Origin: Allorhizocola rhizosphaerae
GTDB lineage: Bacteria > Actinomycetota > Actinomycetes > Mycobacteriales > Micromonosporaceae
NCBI RefSeq assembly: GCF_003426775.1
Contig: NZ_QJUG01000002.1
Span: forward strand, 1 to 64,000
Length of the DNA: 64,000 nucleotides
Direction of reading: 5' to 3'
Position numbers and translations under genes: made by a program. Positions 1,682 through 22,814 of this stretch are shown here, one piece after another. Every line of letters starts with the position of its first letter. The first letter of the stretch is position 1. The notes beneath the pieces are model-generated. The model was not told where the DNA came from, did no database searches, and saw nothing but the letters and a program-made list of their open reading frames with translations.

Positions 1682-2479
1682 TTATTCCGGCAGAGCCTCG
1701 CCGGTTTCGAGCAGCGTCTTGAGCCCCGACAGCAGGTGCGGCCACCCGTCGCCGACCATGGTCGCCAGCGTGCTGCCGGGCTCGAAATCGCCGTGCGTCA
1801 CGGTCAGTTTGACGACAGCTCCGGCCGGCTCGATGTCGAACGTGACCTTCGACCGACGCTCGGTGGAGATTTTCTCGTACACCTCGGGGGTCACGCCGAC
1901 CGCTTCGGCGAACTCCGGCGTGATGCTGTGCCACGTGTAGGAGAGCCGACTGTATGGATTGGACTCCAGCACCACCTGCTCGGGGTCATCCATGATGGTG
2001 CCCTTCATGTCCCAGACGATGCGCGAGCCCGGCTTCCAGTCGCTCTTGAAGGTCACGCCCCAGTAGCGGCTGGTGAACGAGGGATCGGTCAGCGCCTGCC
2101 ACAGCTGCTCGGGCGTGGTCTTGATGTAGGTCTTGTAGACGAAATCGTTGTCTGCCATGGCTGTTGCCTCCAGTGCCTCTTTCAGGTCGTCGAGCGCGCG
2201 CACGCGCTCGCGGGCGTATCGCCCGATCCAGCGTTCGGCGATGGCGTTGACCGGTGCGGCGTTGAGGAAGTGAAGCTTCTCCCGCCCCCGCCAGGACGTG
2301 GTCACCAGGTCGGCCGCCTCAAGCACGGCCAGGTGCTTGCTCACCGACTGCCGCGCCATGTCGAGGCCCTCGCACAGCTCGCGCAGGGTCTGGCCGTTGC
2401 GCTCGTTGAGCCGGTCGAGCAACTTCCGCCGGCTCGGGTCGGCCAGCGCCTTGAAAATCTCGTCCACGCCGATCATCAT
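1682..2479 (-). CDS. ArsR-family HTH fused to AHSA1/SRPBCC domain
   Basis: About 265 residues. The first ~95 form an ArsR winged helix-turn-helix (ALADPSRRKLLDRL and MARQSVSKHLAVLEAADLV are signature segments), a dimeric DNA-binding module. The rest is an AHSA1/SRPBCC (Bet v1-like) domain (TTPEQLWQALTDPSFTSRYW, GDGWPHLLSGLKTLLETG) with a hydrophobic pocket that may bind a ligand. In many genomes these are two adjacent genes; here they are one polypeptide, so ligand sensing and DNA binding could be directly coupled. Several starts are possible (TTG 2488, ATG 2479, ATG 2476, GTG 2467). Two palindromes immediately upstream are candidate autoregulatory operators. The ligand is unknown. Confidence 0.8.
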   Translation of the reverse strand: MMIGVDEIFKALADPSRRKLLDRLNERNGQTLRELCEGLDMARQSVSKHLAVLEAADLVTTSWRGREKLHFLNAAPVNAIAERWIGRYARERVRALDDLKEALEATAMADNDFVYKTYIKTTPEQLWQALTDPSFTSRYWGVTFKSDWKPGSRIVWDMKGTIMDDPEQVVLESNPYSRLSYTWHSITPEFAEAVGVTPEVYEKISTERRSKVTFDIEPAGAVVKLTVTHGDFEPGSTLATMVGDGWPHLLSGLKTLLETGEALPE

Positions 2480-2490
2480 CCCCACCAAAC

Positions 2491-2538
2491 ATGCAGCCGC
2501 GAGGCTGCATTACCCACGATAGGCAGCCAACTGGCTGC
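2491..2538. promoter_or_regulatory. Twin palindromes, likely ArsR-type operators
   Basis: Two related inverted repeats: ATGCAGCC-GCGA-GGCTGCAT at 2491-2510 and GCAGCCA-AC-TGGCTGC at 2523-2538. Both contain the half-site GCAGCC/GGCTGC. They sit between the ArsR-AHSA1 gene and the divergent RTX gene, the usual place for an autoregulatory operator. Binding by the ArsR protein is inferred. Confidence 0.6.
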
Positions 2539-2545
2539 ATGTCAA

Positions 2546-2566
2546 CCACAGCTTTTTCGCAACAGG
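2546..2566 (+). promoter_or_regulatory. Shared upstream element, copy 1 (CCACA-N3-TTTTCGCAAC-N-GG)
   Basis: The pattern CCACA, three variable bases, TTTTCGCAAC, one base and GG lies 56 bases before the RTX gene start at 2622. The same pattern recurs at 3592-3612 before the next secreted-protein gene. Its function is not known. Confidence 0.4.
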
Positions 2567-2621
2567 ACCGCATGCGCTCGCCCATCCACTGGTCTCAAGC
2601 GAGAGACAAGGAGACAGACCG

Positions 2622-3563
2622 ATGACAAAAAGATGGGCAAGCCTGCTGACGGTGTCGGCGATGGTGATCGCGCAGGGCGCGCTCTGGGCCGGCACCGCGC
2701 ACGCCGCGACGGGCAACGTGTCCCTGAACGGCTCCGTGGTCCACTACGAGGCCGACAACGTGAACAACCTGATCACGATCACACACGTCGGTACCAACAT
2801 CATCATTGACGACGTCTGGCCGATGACGGCGGGAGTGGGGTGCTGGACGCTCGACAGCACGAGGGTCGCCTGCGCCGACAGCGGGGTGACGGCCGTGCGG
2901 GTGGACGGCAACGATGGCGACGACCGGATCAACAGCGCGATGGACCTGCCGGTGGGGCTGTCCGGCGGGGACGGCGACGACGTGCTCTCCGGCGGCGACG
3001 GCAATGACACGCTGCGCGGCGGGCCGGGCTCGGACACCATGGCCGGTGACGGCGGGCGTGACGTCGTGACCTACTCCGGGCAGCTCCGCGGCATCCAGGC
3101 CGACCTTGAGGGCGACCGGGACGACGGCGCCTCCGGCGAGGGCGATCTGATCGACGCGGATGTCGAGGACCTGATCGGCGGCGACGGCGACGACACGCTG
3201 CGCGGAGACCACGGCAGCAACCGCCTGTACGGCAACGGCGGTGACGACACCGTCTTCGGTCGCAGCGGCGCGGACACGATCTACGGCGGCGCGGGCAACG
3301 ACGTTCTCGAAGGCATGGACGACGACGACGATGTCTACGGCGGGGATGGCAACGACCGGATCGGCGGTGGCAACGGCGACGACTTCCTCTCCGGCGAGGC
3401 GGGCAACGATGTGCTGGAGGGCGGCTTCGGGTTCGACAGCCTCCTCGGCGGCGCCGGCAACGACCAGCTGTTTGGCCAGGGCGATCCCGATTTCATGGAC
3501 GGCGGCCCGGACGGCGACATCTGCGAGGATTCGTCCACGTGGGTGGCCGTGAGCTGCGAATAA
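2622..3563 (+). CDS. Secreted RTX-type calcium-binding repeat protein
   Basis: 313 residues with a Sec signal peptide (about 1-28, ending TAHAA) after a purine-rich ribosome binding site (AAGGAGAC). Residues ~95-295 are a run of glycine/aspartate nonapeptides of the GGxGxDxLx type (GGDGNDTLRG, GGAGNDVLEG, GGAGNDQLFG), the hemolysin-type calcium-binding repeats that form a calcium-stabilised beta-roll outside the cell. There is no catalytic domain and no type I secretion signal or transporter nearby, so Sec export and a structural or matrix role are more likely than toxin activity. Two cysteines near the C terminus (CEDSS, SCE) may form a disulfide. It shares an upstream element with the following secreted-protein gene. 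Confidence 0.85.
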   Translation: MTKRWASLLTVSAMVIAQGALWAGTAHAATGNVSLNGSVVHYEADNVNNLITITHVGTNIIIDDVWPMTAGVGCWTLDSTRVACADSGVTAVRVDGNDGDDRINSAMDLPVGLSGGDGDDVLSGGDGNDTLRGGPGSDTMAGDGGRDVVTYSGQLRGIQADLEGDRDDGASGEGDLIDADVEDLIGGDGDDTLRGDHGSNRLYGNGGDDTVFGRSGADTIYGGAGNDVLEGMDDDDDVYGGDGNDRIGGGNGDDFLSGEAGNDVLEGGFGFDSLLGGAGNDQLFGQGDPDFMDGGPDGDICEDSSTWVAVSCE

Positions 3564-3591
3564 TCCAACGGTCGTCCCTGCGAAGGGGCGG

Positions 3592-3612
3592 CCACAACAT
3601 TTTCGCAACTGG
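3592..3612 (+). promoter_or_regulatory. Shared upstream element, copy 2
   Basis: Second copy of CCACA-N3-TTTTCGCAAC-N-GG, 14 bases before the ATG of the Calx-beta-like gene and overlapping its leader. All the non-N positions match the copy at 2546-2566. The shorter distance to the start argues against a fixed -35 role and for an operator or leader element. Confidence 0.4.
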
Positions 3613-3626
3613 TAGGAGCTACAAAG

Positions 3627-4139
3627 ATGCGCATGAAGTGGTTGAGAGCCGTGCTCGCCGTCCCGTTGCTGCTCATGCCCACCGCCCCGGCGGCCGCGTC
3701 CGATACGTCGACGCCCATTCCGGCTTGGTGTGTCCGCGACCTCGCCATCCGTCCGGTGCAGATGGCCGAGGGCACGCTCGGCCCAGGCGACACCTCGCCC
3801 TTCACCTGGTTTGGTTTCACCGTGCACGCCACCGGCTGCCAGATGACCGGCGCGACCGTTGTCTATCGCACCGTGCCGCTGAGCACCGAGGAGGACGACC
3901 TCATCGCCGAAAGCGGCACGCTCACCTGGAATGCGTTCGACATGTCCACCCGCACTGTCTACTACAGAGTGTACAAAGACGACAATCGGGAGTCCGACGA
4001 GGAATTCGTGTTCAAGGTCGTCTGCGAGGAGTCGCAGGGCATCTCCGCCGGCACCTACGCCAGGGGAACCATCCTCAACGATGACGGGCTGACGTTCAGC
4101 TCCGAGCAGCTGGTCTATCACTACCACTGTCGGCAATAG
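3627..4139 (+). CDS. Secreted protein with Calx-beta-like domain
   Basis: 170 residues with a signal peptide (about 1-24, LLLMPTAPAAA). The remainder resembles a single Calx-beta domain: ESGTLTWNAFDMSTRTV, then VYKDDNRESDEEFVFKVV and GTILNDD near the C terminus correspond to the typical GTLTF...D...E.DE.F...GTI.NDD layout. Such domains are extracellular beta-sandwiches that often bind calcium. Four cysteines could form disulfides. It follows the RTX gene by 63 bases and probably belongs to the same cell-surface function. Its 3' end overlaps the convergent SARP gene by 44 bases. Confidence 0.7.
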   Translation: MRMKWLRAVLAVPLLLMPTAPAAASDTSTPIPAWCVRDLAIRPVQMAEGTLGPGDTSPFTWFGFTVHATGCQMTGATVVYRTVPLSTEEDDLIAESGTLTWNAFDMSTRTVYYRVYKDDNRESDEEFVFKVVCEESQGISAGTYARGTILNDDGLTFSSEQLVYHYHCRQ

Positions 4140-6933
4140 ACAGTAGTTCGGTGAGCCGTGCCAGTTCGTAATCGTCGGGCAGGGTGCGGCGCAGCGCCAG
4201 CGCGAGGCTCAAGTGTTCGGTCGCACTTGGAAAATCCTCTTTGATGAGGTACGCGTGTGCGACGTGGCCGAGCACGATCGACTCCACGTGCTGGTCGCCG
4301 AGCTCCCGGCACAGCGCCCTGGCCCGCGTGAGGTGGGCCAGGGCGGCGTCGTGGTCGCCCATCGCGAGCAGCGTCGCGCCGATGTCGGCCAGCGTGTCGG
4401 GCACCCTGTGCTGGTCGCCGATCCGCCGGTAGGTCTCGACCGACTCGTGCAGCGCGTCGAGCGCCTCCGTGAAGCGGGAGCCGTTGCGGTGAGCCAGCCC
4501 CAGCCCGTGCAGTACGGCGGCTTCCAGCGGGGCGTTGCCGGTTTCGCGGGCGAGTTCGAGTGCCCGCGTCAGATGGCTCACGTCGCTTCGCCCGGCCTGC
4601 GCTCCCGCGTACCCCACGTTGTTGAGCGCGACCGCGAGCGCTGCCGGACTGTTGCGGGACAACAACTCCAGCGCGCGTTCGAAGTGTGCCGCCGCCTCGT
4701 CGAAGCGGCGCATGCCCGCGTGGGCCACGGCCATGTTGTTGTGCAGGTGTCCTTCGTCTGCTCCGCTTGCCAACGGCAACGCCGACCCGAGCACTTCCAA
4801 CGCCTCGTCATGGCGGCGGCTCGCGTTGTAGGCGGCACCGAGCGCACTGAGCATCAACGCCTCATAGGTGACATCCCCAAGTCGTTGCGCCGCAAGCACA
4901 CCCAGCTTGCAGATCGCGATGCGGTCGGCGCCGCTGCCCCGCCGCATGAAGAACCCACCGAGCAGATATGTCAGCTCGCACACCGCGCGATGGCGCCCGG
5001 CCTCCAGCGCGCGCGCCACGACCGGCAGGAGATTGTCCCGTTCACGGTCGAGAAAGCCAACGGCCGCAGCCGATTCGAGCGGGAATGGCAGCGACTCCGG
5101 CGGGTGCTCGATAGTGGGCACGAGCCTGGTCCGGGTGGGGCTCAGCGCGGTGTTCGTCGCGGCGCAGACAGCGAGGTACCAGTCGAAGAGACGATTTTCG
5201 TCGCCCTCGGAAAGCTCGCGGGCGTAGAGCCGGATGAGGTCGTGGAACCGGTACCGTCCACTTTCGATTTCCGTGATGAGGTGTGCGGCGGCCAGCTCGT
5301 CGACGCTGCGGCGCACCCGGCCGAGCGAGACACCCGCCAGCGCGGCGGCCAGGTGCGGTCCGAAGGTGTCACCCGGGTGCAGGCCAAGCAGCCGGAACAG
5401 CCGCGCGGCCGGCTCGCTGAGCGCGTGATAGGCGGTGGCGAGGACGGCGCGGACGCCGCGCGAGTCGCCCGGCACGGACAGCACGTCGAGTCGATCGTCA
5501 TCATCGGACAGCTCGGCGACCAGATCGGCGACGCGCTGGCGCGGGCGTGCGGCGAGTTTGGCTGCGGCGATGCGCAGCGCGAGGGGAAGCCGCCCGCACA
5601 GTTGGCTCAGCCGGACCGTCGCCTCCGGCTCGGCGTCCACTCTGGACTGTCCCAGCACCCGGGCGAGCAGTTCGGTGGCGTCGGCCCGGTCCATCGCGCC
5701 GAGCCTGACCGGGTGCACGGCGTGGTGGATGAGCAGCGCGGAAAGCTGTTGCCGGCTGGTGACGACGAGCGCGCTGCTCGTGCTCGACAACGCGGGCACG
5801 AGCGGGAGCACATGATCGGCCATGCCCGCGTTGTCGAGCACGAGCAGCACCTGGCGTTCTTCAACCACGGAACGGAAAAGTGCGGCCTGAGCGTCCACTT
5901 CGGAAGGGACGCGGTCGGCGGGCACGCCGAGCGTGCGCAGCACGTGCGCCAGGGCTTCGGACGGGGTGAGCGCGGAGTCGGGGTCGTGCCCGCGCAGATC
6001 GAGGAACAGCTGGCCGTCGGGGTAACGCTCGCGCGCCTCATGCGCCCACTGCAGAGCGAGGGCGGTCTTGCCCGCGCCCGCTGGGCCGGAGATGACGGCG
6101 ATGGACGTGTCCGGCTTCCAGCCGCGCAGGTCCGCCAGCTCGGCGTAGCGGCCGGAAAAGTGCCCGGCGGGTGGGGGGAGTTGGGCAGGCGCCTGCTTGC
6201 GAACGTCGAGTGTCCTATCGCGACGCAGGATCGCGAGGTGGAGATCCTGGATCCGGGCGCCGGGCGCGATTCCGAGCTCATCGGACAGTCGCGAATAGAG
6301 GCGCTGATAGTGGTCGAGCGCGTCGGCTTGGCGGCCCGCACGGTACAAAGAAAGCATGAGAAGCTCAATTGTCCGCTCGCGCAACGGGTTCGCGGCGGCC
6401 AGCTTCTCCAATTCGGCCACGGCAGGCAGATGGTCGCCCAGCCGCAGCCGGATCTCCCACATCTCCTCGGCGGCGGCCAGGCGCAGGGCGCGCAGGCGTT
6501 CGCGCTCGGCGGTGGACCAGTCGTCCTCGCCAACGTCGTTGAGCGCGCCGCCGCGCCACAGGCCCAGCGCCGTCGCGTATTTGTCGGCCGACGACTCGGC
6601 GCGGGCCTCGCGCACCAGATCCTCGAACCGGTGGGCGTCGACGTCTCGCCGGTCGACGGCGAGGGCGTAGCCTGGGCCGCGGGTCACCAGCAGGTCGGGC
6701 AGGCCGCACGCGTCCAGTGCCTGGCGCACGCGGGCGACGTGACTCTGCAGCGTGCGCAGCGCGGTGCGGGGAGGGTTATCGCCCCACAGCGCGTCGATCA
6801 GGCGCGACTGCGTGACGACCGTGCCGGGTTCGAGGGCGAGCAGCGCGACCAGGGCCCGCTGCCGCGTGCCGGCCAGGCCCGTGGACGCGACCGGCCCGAC
6901 CACCTCGACCGGTCCCAATATCCGCACCCGCAC
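4096..6933 (-). CDS. SARP/AfsR-type regulator: DNA-binding, BTAD, NB-ARC, TPR
   Basis: 945 residues. Residues 1-95 form an OmpR-like winged helix, 96-240 the bacterial transcriptional activation domain, and from 260 an NB-ARC/STAND ATPase with P-loop GPAGAGKT (283-290), Walker B QVLLVLDNAG (361-370) and a RLPLAL motif. The C-terminal third is made of TPR repeats (for example ALNNVGYAGAQAG and LADIGATLLAMGDHDAALAHL). The architecture matches AfsR-family pleiotropic regulators, which oligomerise on ATP binding and activate transcription through direct repeats overlapping the -35 element. No secondary-metabolite cluster is adjacent, so targets are unknown; the two secreted-protein genes next door are candidates. 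The start is GTG 6933. Confidence 0.88.
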   Translation of the reverse strand: MRVRILGPVEVVGPVASTGLAGTRQRALVALLALEPGTVVTQSRLIDALWGDNPPRTALRTLQSHVARVRQALDACGLPDLLVTRGPGYALAVDRRDVDAHRFEDLVREARAESSADKYATALGLWRGGALNDVGEDDWSTAERERLRALRLAAAEEMWEIRLRLGDHLPAVAELEKLAAANPLRERTIELLMLSLYRAGRQADALDHYQRLYSRLSDELGIAPGARIQDLHLAILRRDRTLDVRKQAPAQLPPPAGHFSGRYAELADLRGWKPDTSIAVISGPAGAGKTALALQWAHEARERYPDGQLFLDLRGHDPDSALTPSEALAHVLRTLGVPADRVPSEVDAQAALFRSVVEERQVLLVLDNAGMADHVLPLVPALSSTSSALVVTSRQQLSALLIHHAVHPVRLGAMDRADATELLARVLGQSRVDAEPEATVRLSQLCGRLPLALRIAAAKLAARPRQRVADLVAELSDDDDRLDVLSVPGDSRGVRAVLATAYHALSEPAARLFRLLGLHPGDTFGPHLAAALAGVSLGRVRRSVDELAAAHLITEIESGRYRFHDLIRLYARELSEGDENRLFDWYLAVCAATNTALSPTRTRLVPTIEHPPESLPFPLESAAAVGFLDRERDNLLPVVARALEAGRHRAVCELTYLLGGFFMRRGSGADRIAICKLGVLAAQRLGDVTYEALMLSALGAAYNASRRHDEALEVLGSALPLASGADEGHLHNNMAVAHAGMRRFDEAAAHFERALELLSRNSPAALAVALNNVGYAGAQAGRSDVSHLTRALELARETGNAPLEAAVLHGLGLAHRNGSRFTEALDALHESVETYRRIGDQHRVPDTLADIGATLLAMGDHDAALAHLTRARALCRELGDQHVESIVLGHVAHAYLIKEDFPSATEHLSLALALRRTLPDDYELARLTELLSIADSGSDRPAARS

Positions 6934-15912: not shown

Positions 15913-15929
15913 AAGCCGATCATCGGGAA

Positions 15930-15949
15930 TTGAGTCGACCCGACTCAAG
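15930..15949. promoter_or_regulatory. HAIR-type operator (HspR binding site)
   Basis: TTGAGT-N7-ACTCAAG fits the HspR-associated inverted repeat (CTTGAGT-N7-ACTCAAG) apart from the first base. It lies 50 bases before the hsp20 start. A tandem 10-bp repeat GGCACCTAGA follows at 15964-15983. HspR repression relieved by heat is the established model for such sites in actinomycetes. Confidence 0.8.
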
Positions 15950-15999: not shown

Positions 16000-16404
16000 A
16001 TGAGCGCATTGACGTTGTGGACCCGTCGCGACCCGTTCGCGGAGTTCTTCGGTCCGGTCGGGATCGAGCGCGGCTTCGTTCCCGCCGCCGAGATCGTGCG
16101 CGACGGCGACGACGCGGTCGTCCGGCTGGAGCTGCCGGGCGTCGACCCGGACAAGGACGTGACCGTCGAGCTCGACCGCGGCCGGTTGGTCGTGCGCGGT
16201 GAGCGGCGCGACGAGCGGGCCGAGCAGGAGGATGGGCGGACGCTGCGTGAGGTGCGCTACGGCTCGTTCAAGCGGTCGTTCGTGCTTCCCGCCCACGTGA
16301 CTTCCGAGGCGGTGAGCGCGTCCTACGACGCGGGCGTGCTGAGCGTGCGCATCACCAACGCCCACGTCAACAACGAAGCGAAGAAGATTAGCATTACCGT
16401 TTGA
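16000..16404 (+). CDS. Hsp20/alpha-crystallin small heat-shock protein
   Basis: 134 residues, the common length for actinobacterial small heat-shock proteins. The alpha-crystallin domain covers ~25-130: VVRLELPGVDPDKDVTVEL, LVVRGERRDER, GSFKRSFVLP and the A-x-Y-D-A-G-V-L-S-V-R segment (ASYDAGVLSVRI). These ATP-independent holdases bind unfolding proteins as oligomers. The usual C-terminal IxI motif may be ISITV. AGGAGAG precedes the ATG, and the HAIR palindrome upstream predicts heat-induced expression under HspR. Confidence 0.92.
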   Translation: MSALTLWTRRDPFAEFFGPVGIERGFVPAAEIVRDGDDAVVRLELPGVDPDKDVTVELDRGRLVVRGERRDERAEQEDGRTLREVRYGSFKRSFVLPAHVTSEAVSASYDAGVLSVRITNAHVNNEAKKISITV

Positions 16405-16411
16405 TGCCAAC

Positions 16412-16446
16412 GGCCGGGTGCTGTCCTATATGGACAGCGCCCGGCC
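16412..16446. terminator. Hairpin terminator after hsp20
   Basis: 15-bp stem (GGCCGGGTGCTGTCC pairing with GGACAGCGCCCGGCC, one G-U pair) and a TATAT loop, starting 8 bases after the hsp20 stop. There is no U tract, as is common in actinomycetes. Confidence 0.7.
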
Positions 16447-16488
16447 GGCCCACGTTTCGGTGTGCTGCCCGATGGGTACCGTCCACAT

Positions 16489-17319
16489 GTGATAGTTGAC
16501 CGGCTACGCCCTGGCGACCACGTCTGCTGGGCATTCGATGCGGATGACACGGCAACGGAAGTGGTCACCGAATATGTCGAGAGCGGACTGCGCGACGAGC
16601 ACAAGGTGCTCTACTTCGGCGCCGAGCTGCTTCCCGCCGCGCTGCTCGACACGCTCGACGGAGCCGATGGCCAGTTCGAGGCGAGCCCGGCCGCGCAGAT
16701 TTTCCGGCCCGACGGCAGTTTCGAGCCCTCGCGCGCGGTCGAGACGATGGCGGGCCACATCGCCACCGCGCGCAGCGAAGGCTGGACCGGCCTGCGGGTG
16801 CTGGGCGAGATGGCATGGGCGGCCACGGACCGGCCCGTTGCGGTCAAGCGGCTGGCGCAGTTCGAGGCCGACGTCAACCAGCTGTTCATCGACGACTACG
16901 CGATGGCCGTATGTGCGTACAACCGCAGGCTTTTCAATTGGACCGACTTGAGCGAGGTCTGCGCGAGCCATCCGGGGGCGGTCACGTCCAATCATTCCAT
17001 TGACTGGGACCCGTTGCTGCGCATGCGCCGCACAACCGATCCGTTTGGCGTCGCACTCTCCGGTGAGGCCGACGCGTCCAATCAGCGCTCGCTGGCCGCC
17101 GTGCTGCGCGCGCTCATCGCCGAGTCCAATGGCGACACTCTCACCGTCGACGCCACCGGCCTGCGCTTTGCCGACGTGTCCACGGCCCGCCAGATTATCG
17201 GCGCGGCGGAAGCGGTGCAGGGCGTCGTGCGGGTGGTCGGCGCGTCGCCCACGCTTGAGTGGTTGCTCAGCTTCGTGCCGAGCCGGCCCGTGCCGAACCT
17301 GACCGTGGAGCGTGCGTGA
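16489..17319 (+). CDS. MEDS-STAS domain protein
   Basis: 276 residues from GTG 16489 (GTG 16462 is an alternative). It begins with the MEDS sensory domain (LRPGDHVCWAFD; KVLYFGAELLP; GLRVLGEMAWA; CAYNRRLF), found in DcmR-type sensors and thought to bind a ligand. The last ~85 residues form a STAS-like domain (LTVDATGLRFADVSTARQII), a fold used by anti-sigma antagonists. Actinomycetes often carry MEDS proteins near anti-sigma switches, but none is visible here. TACCGT ends 6 nt before GTG 16489, suggesting a leaderless mRNA. It is 27 bases upstream of the HSP90 gene and may act in the same stress response. Confidence 0.75.
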   Translation: MIVDRLRPGDHVCWAFDADDTATEVVTEYVESGLRDEHKVLYFGAELLPAALLDTLDGADGQFEASPAAQIFRPDGSFEPSRAVETMAGHIATARSEGWTGLRVLGEMAWAATDRPVAVKRLAQFEADVNQLFIDDYAMAVCAYNRRLFNWTDLSEVCASHPGAVTSNHSIDWDPLLRMRRTTDPFGVALSGEADASNQRSLAAVLRALIAESNGDTLTVDATGLRFADVSTARQIIGAAEAVQGVVRVVGASPTLEWLLSFVPSRPVPNLTVERA

Positions 17320-17346
17320 CAGCTCTCTGCGGTAGTGTCCACGGCT

Positions 17347-19119
17347 GTGTCATTCACGTTTCACGTCGATCTGCGCGGGATCGTCGACCTGCTGAGCCAT
17401 CACCTCTACGCGAGCCCCCGGGTCTACGTCCGCGAGCTGATGCAGAATGCCGTCGACGCCATCACGGCCGCGGGCCGCACAGCGGAGGGCCGCATCGACA
17501 TCGAGACGCAGGCGGTCACCGGCGGACCGCTGCGCATCACCGACAACGGCATCGGTCTGACCGAGGCACAGGTCCACGAGCTGCTCGCCACGATCGGGCG
17601 CAGCTCCAAACGCGACGATCTGGGCTTCGCCCGGCACGAGTTCCTCGGCCAGTTCGGCATCGGGTTGCTGTCGTGCTTCCTGGTCGCCGACGAGATTGTG
17701 GTGCACACGCGCTGTGACGGTCACCCGGCGGTCGAATGGGTCGGCTCATCGGACGGAAGCTACCGCGTTTCCGTGCTTCCAGATTCAAACCTCCCCTTTG
17801 GTACGGTCGTGAGCCTGCAGCCGCGCCATGGTGCGCGCGAGTGGCTGGAGCCCGCGACGGTGCGCGAGTTGGCCACCCTCTACGGCTCGATGCTGCCGAT
17901 CCCGGTGCGCGTCGACGGTGAGCCCATCACCTTGGGCCTGCGGCCGTGGGAGACCGCCGACGGCGAGTCGGCTCTGGCCCGCCGCACGCGGCTGTTGTCA
18001 TACGCCGAGGAGCACTTCGGCTTCCTGCCGTTCGACATCATCGATCTGGAGGCGGCCGAGGCGGGCCTGCGCGGTGTGGCGTTCGTGCTTCCCGTGCCGT
18101 CGTCTCCGTCGTCGCGTGCGGCACACCGTGTCTATCTCAAGCAGATGCTCCTGGGTGAGGGCATCGAGGGACTGCTGCCCGAGTGGGCGTTCTTCGTGCG
18201 CTGCGTGGTCGACACCACCGAGCTGCGGCCCACCGCCAGCCGCGAGGCGCTGTATGAGGACAGTCTGCTCGAACAGGTGCGTGACGCGCTCGGCGACCAG
18301 CTGCGCGGCTGGATGACCCGGCTGGGCGCCACCGACCACCACCGGCTCGACGCGTTCCTGCGCATCCACCACCTGGGCGTCAAGGCGCTGGCCGCGCACG
18401 ACGACGAGATGCTGCGGCTCGTGGCGCAGTGGTGGCCGTTCGAGACCACGGTCGGAGCCATGACCCTCGCGGAGTTTCGCGACCGGCACGGGCTCATCCG
18501 CTACGCGCCCTCGCTCGACGAGTTCCGCCAGATCGCCGCGGTCGCGTCCGCGCAAGGCATCGCGGTCGTCAACGCCGGTTATGTGTACGACGCCGACCTC
18601 ATCGCGCGCCTGCCCGAGGTCGACAAGGAGGCGGTGGTCGAGCCGCTCGCGGCGACCGATCTGACCACCCGGCTGGACGAGCTCGAACCCGACGTCGAGC
18701 TCGGTCTGCGCCCGTTCCAGCTTGCGGCGCAACGCATCCTGGACCGGTTCGGGGTGGAGCTGCTGATCCGGGCGTTCGACCCGGTGAGCCTGCCCGCGCT
18801 GTACCTGCTCGACGGCGACACCGCGTTCAACATCGACCTGCGCCGGGGCCAGGAACAGGTCGACGACGTGTGGGCGTCGATCCTGGGCTCGTTCACCGCC
18901 GGGCGCACCGACCGCCCGCAGCTCGTGCTGAACCACCGCAATCCGTTGGTGCGCCAGGCGATGTCCATCGCCGAGCCCGACCTGGCGGTGCTCGCGGTGG
19001 AGGGCCTGTATGTGCAGGCGCTGCTGCTCGGGCACCAGCCGCTGCGCCCGGTCGACACGGCGGCGATGAACCAGTCGTTCCTCGGACTGCTGGGCCGTGC
19101 GATGAAGGCGCAGTCATGA
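17347..19119 (+). CDS. HSP90-family (HtpG-like) ATPase
   Basis: 590 residues. The N-terminal GHKL ATPase domain shows ELMQNAVDAI (Glu and Asn of motif 1), ITDNGIGLT and the lid-region glycines GQFGIGLLSCF, as in HtpG. The middle domain follows (KQMLLGEGIEGLLPEWAFFVRCVVDTTEL; TASREALYED matches the HtpG NVSREILQ segment). The C-terminal part is divergent with no MEEVD tail. HSP90 proteins are ATP-driven chaperones acting as dimers. I prefer GTG 17347 because TAGTGT at 17333-17338, a likely -10, overlaps GTG 17335. The stop overlaps the next gene (ATGA), so the TPR protein is co-translated, which suggests a functional complex. Confidence 0.88.
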   Translation: MSFTFHVDLRGIVDLLSHHLYASPRVYVRELMQNAVDAITAAGRTAEGRIDIETQAVTGGPLRITDNGIGLTEAQVHELLATIGRSSKRDDLGFARHEFLGQFGIGLLSCFLVADEIVVHTRCDGHPAVEWVGSSDGSYRVSVLPDSNLPFGTVVSLQPRHGAREWLEPATVRELATLYGSMLPIPVRVDGEPITLGLRPWETADGESALARRTRLLSYAEEHFGFLPFDIIDLEAAEAGLRGVAFVLPVPSSPSSRAAHRVYLKQMLLGEGIEGLLPEWAFFVRCVVDTTELRPTASREALYEDSLLEQVRDALGDQLRGWMTRLGATDHHRLDAFLRIHHLGVKALAAHDDEMLRLVAQWWPFETTVGAMTLAEFRDRHGLIRYAPSLDEFRQIAAVASAQGIAVVNAGYVYDADLIARLPEVDKEAVVEPLAATDLTTRLDELEPDVELGLRPFQLAAQRILDRFGVELLIRAFDPVSLPALYLLDGDTAFNIDLRRGQEQVDDVWASILGSFTAGRTDRPQLVLNHRNPLVRQAMSIAEPDLAVLAVEGLYVQALLLGHQPLRPVDTAAMNQSFLGLLGRAMKAQS

Positions 19120-20984
19120 TTTTGTCCGAAGTGGAGCTCAGCCAGCGTTGGGTGCAGGCCTACGGCATGCCGCGCGGCCCGGCGAAGTTCGAGGCGCTCG
19201 ACTACGTGCTGCGGCACGCCGACGCGGCCGGGCTTACCCAGCATGCGCTCAGCTGGCGCATGATGGCGCTCACCGAGTTCCACCACGGCGGCGACCCGGC
19301 GCGGGTGTTCCTCGCGTTCTCCCAGTGCCTGGCGGCGATCGACCGCGACCCGTCGCTTCAGTACAGCGAGCACAGTCTGCTGTGGACGTTCAAGTGGGTG
19401 GTGTGGGCGCTGCCGCAGTTCCCGGAGATCCCGCTGGAGCGCACGTTCGCCGTGCTCGACGATATGCAGGCGCGCTATCTGCGCGCCGGGCACAGCCTGC
19501 ACGCCTTCTATCAGCACCGATGGCTGGTCTCCCACCACATCGGACTGTCCGATGCGGAGGAATGGTACGTCAGGCTCGTCACGGCCGAGCGAGACAGCCT
19601 GTCCGACTGCCGGCATTGCGTCCCGTCGTCGCAGGTGCGCCACCTGGCGACGATGGGACGCGACGAGGAGGCCATCGAGGTGGGCGCGCCGTTCACCAGT
19701 GGCGGCTGCACTGAGCAGCCCCAATGGATGCTCTCCGAGCTGCTTGTGCCATACCTGCGCACGGGCCGTTGGGAGCAGGCGGCCGACGCCCACCGGGTCG
19801 GCTACGCGCACATGCGCGGCGACCGGCACCACCTGGACAACATCGCGCAGCACGTGTTCTTCTGCGGTTTGAGCGGCAACGAGGTGCGCGGGCTGGAGCT
19901 CGTCGACCGGCATCGCGGCTGGCTCGACGCGCCGTCGTCGCCTTATGCCGCAATGGAGTTCGCGTCCGCGGCGGCGCTCGTGCTGCGCCGGGTCGGTGAG
20001 GCGGACGACGCGGCGCGCATGGCGCGCCTTGCCCGTGACATCGCCGCGCGGTTCGACGCCCGCAACGGCAACACCCATCAGAGCACCCGCATCGAGGCTC
20101 GCATGGCCGCCGAGCCGTTGGCCGAGCGTGTGGCGCTCACGGCCGTCGGCGGATATCGGCGCGGCATGCCGAAGGCCGCGGCCAGGCTGCTGGATCTCGT
20201 CGGCGAGCTGACCGCGCAGGGCGATCCGGAGACGGCGGCGAGCACGCTGTTCGCGGCGGCGCGCCATCTGCACGCGGCCGGGCAGGCCGACGACGCCATC
20301 GAGACCGCCGAGGAGGCGGTGCGCGCGCTCGACCGGCACGCTCTGACCGAGGAGGCGCTGCGCTGCCGGGCCCTGCTCTGGGAGCTCTACCTGGACTGGA
20401 CGAACGACCGCGAACGGGCCGACGCGCTGCTCGACGAGCTGTTGGCCGCACCGAGCCTGCCCGAGGGCGTGCCGTCGCACGCCGACATGTGCCAGCGGGC
20501 GGGGCGTTACGTCGAGGCGGCCGCGCACCATCGGCAAGCCGGTGATCGGTTGGGCGAGCTGCGGGCGCTGCTGTGTGCGCTGCCCTCCGACGACGCGGCG
20601 ACCCTCGCACACGCGGAGGCGGTGGCGGCCGGCGACTGGGCGCCCACGGAGCTCCTGGCCGCGCTCGACAGCTTCGCCGCGGAGGCGCTCTATCGCGCGG
20701 GCGACTACGTGGGCGCCGTTGCCCGCACAGAGGTGGGGCTGCGCCGCGAGCCCGGCGACGAATTCTCGGCGCGGCACCGGCTCCGGATGACGGCGGCGCA
20801 GGCGCTGGTGCGTTTGGGCAGACCGGCCGAGGCCGAACCGCTGGCGCGCGCCGAAACCGATGACTACTCGGTCGCCGGGCCCTGTGTGCTGGCTCTGGTC
20901 CTGCGGCGGCTCGGCCGCGACGCCGAGGCCGAAGCGGTGATGGACCTCTACGGGCTCGACGAGCACGATCTCTATCTGGAGTAG
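19116..20984 (+). CDS. TPR-like helical repeat protein, HSP90 partner candidate (paralog 1)
   Basis: 622 residues, predicted almost entirely helical with degenerate TPR-like repeats (AASTLFAAARHLHAAGQADDAIETAEEAVRAL-type segments). It is a paralog of the next gene: both share HADAAG, FLAFSQxLAAxDRDP, EHSxLWxFKW, FPEIPLxRT, GNEVRGLEL and the motif SDCxxCVPSxQ (Cys165 and Cys168), a possible metal or redox site. The start overlaps the HSP90 stop by four bases. TPR proteins are classical HSP90 co-chaperones in eukaryotes, so a client-delivery or regulatory role is plausible but inferred. No enzymatic domain is visible. Confidence 0.75.
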   Translation: MILSEVELSQRWVQAYGMPRGPAKFEALDYVLRHADAAGLTQHALSWRMMALTEFHHGGDPARVFLAFSQCLAAIDRDPSLQYSEHSLLWTFKWVVWALPQFPEIPLERTFAVLDDMQARYLRAGHSLHAFYQHRWLVSHHIGLSDAEEWYVRLVTAERDSLSDCRHCVPSSQVRHLATMGRDEEAIEVGAPFTSGGCTEQPQWMLSELLVPYLRTGRWEQAADAHRVGYAHMRGDRHHLDNIAQHVFFCGLSGNEVRGLELVDRHRGWLDAPSSPYAAMEFASAAALVLRRVGEADDAARMARLARDIAARFDARNGNTHQSTRIEARMAAEPLAERVALTAVGGYRRGMPKAAARLLDLVGELTAQGDPETAASTLFAAARHLHAAGQADDAIETAEEAVRALDRHALTEEALRCRALLWELYLDWTNDRERADALLDELLAAPSLPEGVPSHADMCQRAGRYVEAAAHHRQAGDRLGELRALLCALPSDDAATLAHAEAVAAGDWAPTELLAALDSFAAEALYRAGDYVGAVARTEVGLRREPGDEFSARHRLRMTAAQALVRLGRPAEAEPLARAETDDYSVAGPCVLALVLRRLGRDAEAEAVMDLYGLDEHDLYLE

Positions 20985-20996
20985 AGGAACCTCCAA

Positions 20997-22814
20997 ATGT
21001 CCAGTGAGCAGGAACTGCAGCGCATGTTCGGCGACGCCATGGCCATGCCCGACAGCGTGGTCAAGATGGCCGCGCTGGACGCGGCGATCCGGCACGCCGA
21101 CGCGGCCGGCAGCCAGAAGCTGGCGTTCCAGTTCCGGCACCAGGCGATCACGCCGTTCCACTTCGCGGGCGACGACCGGCGCGCGTTTCTGGCGTTCTCG
21201 CAGAGCCTGGCCGCGTACGACCGGGACCCGACGATCGCGCCCAACGCCGAGCACTCGATCCTGTGGCAGTTCAAATGGATGGTCAGCGCGCTGACCGAGT
21301 TCCCGGAGATCCCGCTGGACCGGACGTATGCGGTGCTTGCCGATATGCAGCAGCGGTACCAGCGTGCCGGCTACAGTCTGCACCCCGTGCACCAGCGGCG
21401 GTGCCAACTCGCGCTGCACATCGGCGACTTCGAGCAGGCGGCACGGTCCTATCACGACATGGTCACGGCCAAGCGGGACGGCATGTCCGACTGCGCGGTG
21501 TGCGTGCCGTCCGGGCAGACCCGCATCCTGTCGGCGATGGGCCGGTGGGAGGAGGCGCTGGAGGCGGGGCATCCGGCACGCAACGGGCGCTGCGCGCGGC
21601 AGCCGCAGTGGGTGCAGGCCTTTCTGCTGCAGCCCTATGTGCGGGCGGGGCGGGTCGATGAGGCGGCCGAGATGTTCCGCGCGTCCTATCGGCGCATGCG
21701 CGAGGCGCACACCTACCTGGGCGGCATCGGGCTGCACCTGTCGTTCCTCGCGGCGACGGGCAACGAGGTGCGCGGGCTGGAGTTGATCGAGCGGCACCTG
21801 CCGTGGCTGGACGTGTCGCACACGCCAGGTGACCGCATGCACTTCGCGTCGGCTGCGGTCAATGTGCTGCGGCGCTTATCGGACAACGGTTATGGCGCGC
21901 AGGAGACGGCGCGAGGGTCCACTGTGGACGAGCTCGCGGCTTCGCTGCGCGCCTATGCGCTGGAGCTCGCCGCGAAGTTCGACGCGCGCAACGGGACCGA
22001 CCGGCAGGCCCGACTCGCGGAGGAGCGCATGACGGCGCCGCGGCTGGTGGGGGATCGGGTGCGGCTCACGGTGCTTTCGCCCGGTACCAAAAATGGCAAG
22101 GAAATGCTCGACGCGGCGCTGGCCATGAAGGACCAGAAGCAGGTGGAGGAGGCGCTGTCGGCGGCCGAGGAGGCCGCCACCGCGCTGGAGCGGGCCGGAG
22201 AGAGCGAAGACCTTTGGCGCGCAAGGCTTTTGCTGTGGGAGTTGTACAGCCGGGATTACCGGCACACGGAAGCGGCGCTCGCCGTGCTGGAACTTTTGCT
22301 GGGCAACGAAAACCTGCCGGAGCGCGGCAAGCTCGCCGAGCGCGGTGCGCGGATGGCGTGGGGTGAGAAAGCTTTCCCGCGCTGGGTCGTGGCCGCGGAC
22401 CTCTATCGGGCGGAGGGCGACGGGCTGAGCGAGCTGCGGGCGCTGCGCTGGGCGATCGCGACGGGCGGGTCGGTGGAGCTGCTGGAGCGCGCCGATGCGA
22501 TCGAGGGCGAGCAGACCGCGCCGTGGCAGGAGGAGCGGGGGCACCTCGACATCGCGGCGGCAGGCCTGTTGCGGCGCCAGGGACGGCCCGAGGCGGCGCT
22601 GGCCCGGGTCAGCCAGGCGTCGATCGCGCGCGACGACTGGCTGATCTGCTCCCTGCTGCTGGAGCTCGGCCGGCCGGCCGAGGCGGAGGCGCTGGCCAGG
22701 GAAACCGAGCAATACGACATGCTGGTGCCGGCGTTGCGCGCGCTCGGCCGGCACGAGGAGGCCAAGGCCGTGATGGACGAGCAGGACCTGGAGGAGGAAG
22801 ACCTCCACCAGTGA
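20997..22814 (+). CDS. TPR-like helical repeat protein (paralog 2)
   Basis: 605 residues, paralogous over its whole length to the preceding protein, including SDCAVCVPSGQ (Cys166, Cys169) and NEVRGLELIERHLPWLD. It lies 12 bases downstream with a short GGA ribosome binding site, so HSP90 and both TPR genes form one operon. The C terminus is acidic (VMDEQDLEEEDLHQ), like that of paralog 1 (VMDLYGLDEHDLYLE). Tandem duplication followed by divergence suggests the two may form a heterodimer or serve different clients. Directly after the stop, the DNA changes to the truncated end of a convergent gene. Confidence 0.75.
   Translation: MSSEQELQRMFGDAMAMPDSVVKMAALDAAIRHADAAGSQKLAFQFRHQAITPFHFAGDDRRAFLAFSQSLAAYDRDPTIAPNAEHSILWQFKWMVSALTEFPEIPLDRTYAVLADMQQRYQRAGYSLHPVHQRRCQLALHIGDFEQAARSYHDMVTAKRDGMSDCAVCVPSGQTRILSAMGRWEEALEAGHPARNGRCARQPQWVQAFLLQPYVRAGRVDEAAEMFRASYRRMREAHTYLGGIGLHLSFLAATGNEVRGLELIERHLPWLDVSHTPGDRMHFASAAVNVLRRLSDNGYGAQETARGSTVDELAASLRAYALELAAKFDARNGTDRQARLAEERMTAPRLVGDRVRLTVLSPGTKNGKEMLDAALAMKDQKQVEEALSAAEEAATALERAGESEDLWRARLLLWELYSRDYRHTEAALAVLELLLGNENLPERGKLAERGARMAWGEKAFPRWVVAADLYRAEGDGLSELRALRWAIATGGSVELLERADAIEGEQTAPWQEERGHLDIAAAGLLRRQGRPEAALARVSQASIARDDWLICSLLLELGRPAEAEALARETEQYDMLVPALRALGRHEEAKAVMDEQDLEEEDLHQ

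Follow-up and report, generated by a model that had tools for sequence, protein, structure and literature searches.

In eukaryotes, HSP90 is served by TPR co-chaperones, which hold a clamp of three repeats and use it to bind an EEVD-type tail on HSP90. For bacteria, PMC3708813 states, where it turns to this subject, that no obligate HSP90 co-chaperones have been identified, and that genome-scale co-evolution study left out the hsp90B and hsp90C paralogues; PMC4428384, in its remarks on E. coli HtpG, likewise reports no identified co-chaperone. Bacterial HTPG genes have been divided into groups A, B and C (Chen 2006, PMC1525184), with group C described as including copies from Firmicutes and Actinobacteria and the two HTPG genes of S. 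coelicolor placed in different groups. A word search of the main text of PMC1525184 returned no mention of an operon or of TPR, and our search of the open-licence literature, conducted largely on titles and the starts of abstracts, found no description of HSP90-TPR pairing.

Here we describe such a pairing in Allorhizocola rhizosphaerae. The stretch analysed, referred to as the window, is 64,000 nucleotides long, and we consider it very likely that it encodes a functional HSP90-TPR module.

The locus

The genes concerned are as follows:

16000..16404, + strand: HSP20 small heat-shock protein (PF00011 match)
16462..17319, + strand: MEDS-STAS protein, 285 aa (Pfam MEDS and STAS_2, both above cut-off)
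17335..19119, + strand: HSP90 (NCBIfam NF010683), 594 aa, a chaperone with N, M and C domains (profile score, Foldseek and conserved residues)
19116..20984, + strand: TPR1, 622 aa; a conserved core (residues 1-345, approximately) that carries SDC165xxC168...C198 and FDARN, followed by a C-terminal TPR array of variable make-up and a tail rich in acidic residues
20997..22814, + strand: TPR2, 605 aa, a paralogue in tandem with TPR1; core 1-348 and second TPR array 361-602, with C166, C169 and C199

The original prediction set out a four-gene layout (MEDS-STAS, HSP90 and two TPR genes), and these ORFs are present, all on the + strand. Both of its close junctions hold as well: HSP90 and TPR1 share the four bases 19116-19119, and TPR2 follows 12 bases past TPR1 (20984 to 20997). 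The MEDS-STAS stop lies 15 bases from HSP90, and position 16489, earlier given as the MEDS-STAS start, is an in-frame GTG within the ORF 16462-17319.

Two inverted repeats were seen in the DNA around HSP20. The one at 15929-15949, 51 bases 5' of HSP20, resembles HAIR (the HspR operator), with one mismatch to the consensus; 0.09 chance matches are expected at two mismatches or fewer. The other, at about 16415-16460 between HSP20 and MEDS-STAS, is GC-rich, was spotted by eye and is possibly a terminator that parts HSP20 from the operon.

The HSP90

The HSP90 is not canonical HtpG; it belongs to NF010683 (PRK14083), a family whose description names no partner. Against that profile it scores 783.2 bits over residues 6-593 (cut-off 455), whereas its score of 149 bits against canonical HtpG (NF003555) is below the cut-off of 371. 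Pfam names the gene product an HSP90-like ATPase. Its predicted model (pLDDT 80.7) has a full-length HSP90 fold (Foldseek 7exp_B, E 7e-29, TMq 0.66, 625 columns) and matches TRAP1, HtpG and cytosolic HSP90 along its whole length. Glu34, Asn38, Asp70, Gly72, Gly74 and Arg303 are invariant in 89/89 aligned sequences, and T157 is kept in 87/89. The counterparts of the six invariant residues have catalytic (ATPase) roles in HtpG and yeast Hsp82, and the window HSP90 has its catalytic residues intact.

The A. rhizosphaerae genome holds two HSP90s of the NF010683 family, and a TPR gene follows both of them. No third HSP90 or canonical HtpG was matched in the assembly, which is estimated to be 96.7% complete. 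An EEVD-type tail was found at none of 97 HSP90 C termini, and docking of the TPR proteins on such a tail was rejected for that reason. We infer that NF010683 corresponds to HTPG group C of PMC1525184.

Conservation of the gene pair

The original prediction named as its refutation a lack of conserved linkage in relatives; what we found is near-universal linkage, from Actinomycetota to Listeria and Paenibacillus. Three genome samples were used. They overlap (e.g., L086 is apparently G365:C55, and L098 is apparently G331:C584), and their counts are kept separate and are not additive. ORF calls in high-GC loci were mechanical.

In the phylum sample, 10 of 296 genomes had an NF010683 HSP90, and a TPR core lay directly downstream in all 13 of their NF010683 loci. 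A TPR core was present in 10/10 genomes with this HSP90 and in 2/286 without it (Fisher p = 5e-17, which is indicative only since the genomes are related). The second sample, a scan of public named genomes, covered the best 80 of 573 confirmed relatives, a set that leans to close kin of the window, and found a TPR core directly downstream of HSP90 in 80/80 (73 complete, 7 cut by a contig end). Its genera include Micromonospora, Actinoplanes, Streptomyces, Kitasatospora, Nocardia, Amycolatopsis, Actinomadura, Kribbella and Nocardioides.

Within Micromonosporaceae (121 genomes), the TPR core was directly downstream in 103/110 HSP90 loci, and among the seven exceptions only G326, with HSP90 and TPR on different contigs, is clearly unlinked. 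Three loci (G365, G299 and G382) stop at a contig end, and one (G316) has the order reversed, with the TPR gene upstream of HSP90 and a four-base overlap. The remaining two have a divergent TPR-like gene, either directly downstream of HSP90 (G359; 20.5 bits, FDARN present) or 4.1 kb downstream, past a 995-aa gene (G298). As a negative control, we looked for a TPR core within 1.5 kb of sub-cut-off (HtpG-type) HSP90 loci: it was found at 0/20, compared with 9/9 NF010683 loci in the same test. HSP90-TPR linkage is beyond chance. No protein with HSP90 and the TPR core fused was seen.

Some copies are, or may be, interrupted. The TPR gene is split over two frames in L093 (Actinoallomurus spadix) and L116 (Actinomadura sp. 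CNU-125), through sequencing error or decay, and the HSP90 loci G324, G362, G392 and G410 each have one in-frame stop codon in the matched stretch, within the gene or at its end.

Searching plasmid records with tblastn yielded loci from Listeria monocytogenes and Paenibacillus cellulosilyticus, with the same HSP90-to-TPR order, an HSP90 identity of 33-37% and a cross-phylum TPR identity of about 24%. The Listeria monocytogenes record, although filed as a plasmid, is chromosomal DNA by its gene content and size. It has an NF010683-family HSP90 beside fri, and downstream of that HSP90 lie two TPR paralogues in tandem (324 and 320 aa); a second Listeria record has a single complete TPR core. The published lmo0942-fri spacing of 202 bases (from the part of PMC3534079 dealing with it) fits this arrangement, so the HSP90 and its two TPR genes should be lmo0942, lmo0941 and lmo0940. 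For lmo0941, a population study mentions selection signals and an unknown function (PMC6901971, in the section concerned). The partner is annotated as a hypothetical protein in both Listeria and Streptomyces globosus. HSP90-like genes of still greater divergence were also seen in L169 (5892-9596), L171 (3808-8881) and L172 (5983-9826). In all three a TPR-repeat gene comes next, and the pairing may therefore reach past NF010683.

The simplest objection to a functional link is that the two genes travel together as a selfish operon or by hitch-hiking inheritance. Genomes within each sample are related and their counts are not independent, as this explanation would have it. However, the linkage holds over two phyla at the low identities given above while the flanking genes change, and it holds in paralogous loci of one genome. 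We therefore regard hitch-hiking as very unlikely.

Joint evolution and TPR duplication

Trees and distances were built from 89 of the 97 HSP90 loci, leaving out L093 and others with a core under 280 aa or cut by a contig end. Across 89 pairs, the pairwise distances of HSP90 track those of the TPR core with a correlation of r = 0.90, compared with 0.26 for the best of 500 permutations. Shared genome ancestry adds to this value, so agreement within subclades carries more weight. The window's CxxCVP subclade, from which L133 (VP motif, placed elsewhere) was excluded, forms a single clade in the HSP90 tree and in the TPR tree (support 1.0) and has near-identical branching, the sole difference being a weak node in the HSP90 tree (0.42).

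Tandem TPR copies have at least three origins: one in Listeria, one in G331 and one in the lineage ancestral to the window, G411, Catelliglobosispora and Catellatospora. Catelliglobosispora and Catellatospora retain only the TPR2 type, and the node uniting TPR1 and TPR2 of this last group has a support of only 0.62.

Neighbouring genes

The MEDS-STAS gene had been counted as part of the module. This was not borne out, with no homologue at E 1e-6 among the ORFs of 96 other HSP90 loci. HSP20 was rejected as a member too, being beside no other HSP90 locus examined. Both are local neighbours only, outside the conserved module. No third gene is conserved across clades, and the recurrent neighbours resemble clade synteny: they vary by clade and are housekeeping-like (e.g., biotin carboxylase, TetR, GDSL lipase and tRNA synthetase). 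HAIR and CIRCE heat-shock operators showed no excess over shuffled sequence upstream of HSP90 in 97 loci.

These neighbours bear on whether the pair belongs to a system for stress or conflict (defence-like), where the threshold of an effector would be set by HSP90 and TPR. A patchy distribution, paralogous copies and tandem duplications would suit such a role, and chaperone/co-chaperone pairs are known in conflict systems according to the relevant part of PMC7159879. Against it, no effector gene is found repeatedly beside the pair, the differing neighbours look housekeeping, and PADLOC gave only weak matches, to the HSP90 ATPase domain, and none for TPR. Classification as a defence system was rejected on the PADLOC result, and we consider the conflict-system reading highly improbable.

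A mobile or phage origin was also rejected: the "phage" records in which the pair occurs are short scaffolds without annotation, one of them labelled UNVERIFIED, and are most simply host DNA. That label belongs to L173 (MT837560.1), a 6.6-kb "Bacteriophage sp." scaffold with the pair at 1915-6488, which is likely host DNA filed as phage and may explain PHROG families 32952 and 34905. A scan of IMG/VR with P0002 gave one partial match, at 37%.

The TPR proteins

TPR1 and TPR2 are 41% identical, and the SDCxxCVPSxQ motif that they were said to share is present in both. The acidic C termini ascribed to them are a feature of TPR1 and TPR2 but are absent from the Listeria TPRs. Across the wider set, Cys166, Cys169 and Cys199 (TPR2 numbering) are each found in 91/92 cores, and the TPR proteins encoded next to HSP90 belong to a single family, marked by a CxxC...C site and by FDARN. 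The short Listeria proteins have CxxC and FDARN and nothing beyond the core, so the core appears to be the conserved part, and comparison of the sequences suggests that C-terminal arrays were added on.

With Pfam, TPR1 and TPR2 have TPR matches below threshold only. The AlphaFold model of TPR2 (mean pLDDT 95) is more informative: it predicts that the protein is a TPR superhelix, spanning residues 1-348, with a second TPR array over 361-602. The top structural matches of the 1-348 core (VIA) are MalT domain III (Z 21.8), an APC/C subunit (21.6), Rap (19.2) and NprR (18.8). Helical repeats commonly reach such Z values, so these matches speak for a shared scaffold and not for a function.

Sensory TPRs are prominent in this list, which favours the main rival for the TPR role. 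Here, the TPR protein would be a dedicated client, i.e., a MalT- or RRNPP-like sensor or regulator whose folding or switching depends on an HSP90 of its own, much as steroid receptors and plant NLRs depend on eukaryotic HSP90. Variable C-terminal arrays would suit variable sensors. On the other hand, long helical repeats match one another readily, making the fold matches weak evidence, and, YbjN aside, Pfam detected neither a DNA-binding nor an enzymatic domain (HTH, phosphatase, ATPase) in the TPR proteins scanned. The latter point counts against a client, with the caveat that an absent Pfam match is itself weak evidence.

TPR genes without HSP90

The association is asymmetric: HSP90 without TPR is almost never seen, while 44 of the 150 Micromonosporaceae TPR matches listed (from 100/102 genomes) have no adjacent HSP90. 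YbjN is fused or adjacent in 9 of 19 unlinked TPR loci (17 from Micromonosporaceae, G171 and an Actinomyces oris plasmid); the other ten have no neighbour gene common to the group. The YbjN-linked TPRs form one clade of 11 tips (support 1.0), ten of them with YbjN. This clade includes G316, where a TPR-YbjN fusion adjoins HSP90. In L141, L149-L151 and L154-L158, the TPR-core genes either adjoin YbjN or are fused to it, and they lie in a syntenic chromosomal Micromonosporaceae locus with an FtsK gene. The orphan TPRs were also considered as kin of NsdA-type regulators, which are XRE-TPR proteins, and this was rejected: they have no XRE domain, and YbjN was found instead.

According to the pertinent part of PMC9503650, the YbjN fold is that of type III secretion chaperones. 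The TPR core thus keeps company with two unrelated chaperone-type proteins, HSP90 and YbjN, which favours an adaptor role, although a client of several chaperones would look alike. TPR genes that lack an adjacent HSP90 also fit the client explanation; of those sampled, roughly half neighbour YbjN instead. Taking both sides together, we rate the client explanation as rather unlikely.

A proposed HSP90-TPR module

An adaptor is the best reading of the TPR role. We judge it somewhat better than an even chance that the NF010683 HSP90 and the TPR protein are a conserved two-component chaperone module, in which the TPR protein is an adaptor (co-chaperone) dedicated to a distinct branch of bacterial HSP90. 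The basis for a module is operon linkage with close or overlapping start and stop codons, co-distribution, parallel phylogenies, the catalytic residues, the predicted TPR superhelix and the near-invariant CxxC...C site; as far as sequences can indicate, it is plausible that the TPR proteins are co-chaperones. Several points weigh against the adaptor. Operon linkage and parallel trees also fit a chaperone with its client, and the best fold matches include sensor TPRs, which do not partner chaperones. The lack of EEVD-like tails, the unlinked genes of G326 and the lack of any HSP90-TPR fusion count on the same side.

If the adaptor reading is right, HSP90 and TPR would be made together via translational coupling and would bind each other, with the N-terminal TPR core contacting HSP90 without any C-terminal EEVD tail. 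The variable C-terminal arrays and tandem TPR copies could then pick different clients, and the three cysteines (C166/C169/C199) may bind zinc in a structural role or serve as a redox site. In a fuller version of this proposal, an HSP90 branch would be served by a TPR co-chaperone that is obligate, is encoded in the operon and needs no EEVD for docking; the core would be a general adaptor for HSP90 or YbjN-type chaperones, and TPR duplication, at least three times, would diversify clients. We hold this version tentatively, its chance falling a little short of even.

Were TPR a true partner, bacteria would have their own HSP90-TPR system, which would bear on the origin of TPR co-chaperones and on whether they arose by descent or convergence.

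Comparison with known systems

The window HSP90 has the N-M-C fold in common with canonical HtpG (NF003555), as well as the catalytic Glu and the middle-domain Arg. It differs in its TPR neighbour, which none of the 20 HtpG-type loci has.

The sensors MalT (domain III), Rap and NprR (RRNPP) share their superhelical TPR fold with residues 1-348 of TPR2. The window TPRs differ from them in having the CxxC...C and FDARN signatures and no output domain by Pfam.

The likeness to the eukaryotic TPR co-chaperones (e.g., Hop, FKBP51/52 and Cpr6) is that HSP90 is paired with TPR proteins. Unlike eukaryotic HSP90, however, the HSP90s of these loci have no EEVD-type C terminus and their partner is encoded in the same operon, and the TPR protein is a long superhelix in place of the short eukaryotic clamp. 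The near-constant pairing of the two genes suggests that bacteria have an equivalent of the teams of chaperone and helper known from eukaryotes.
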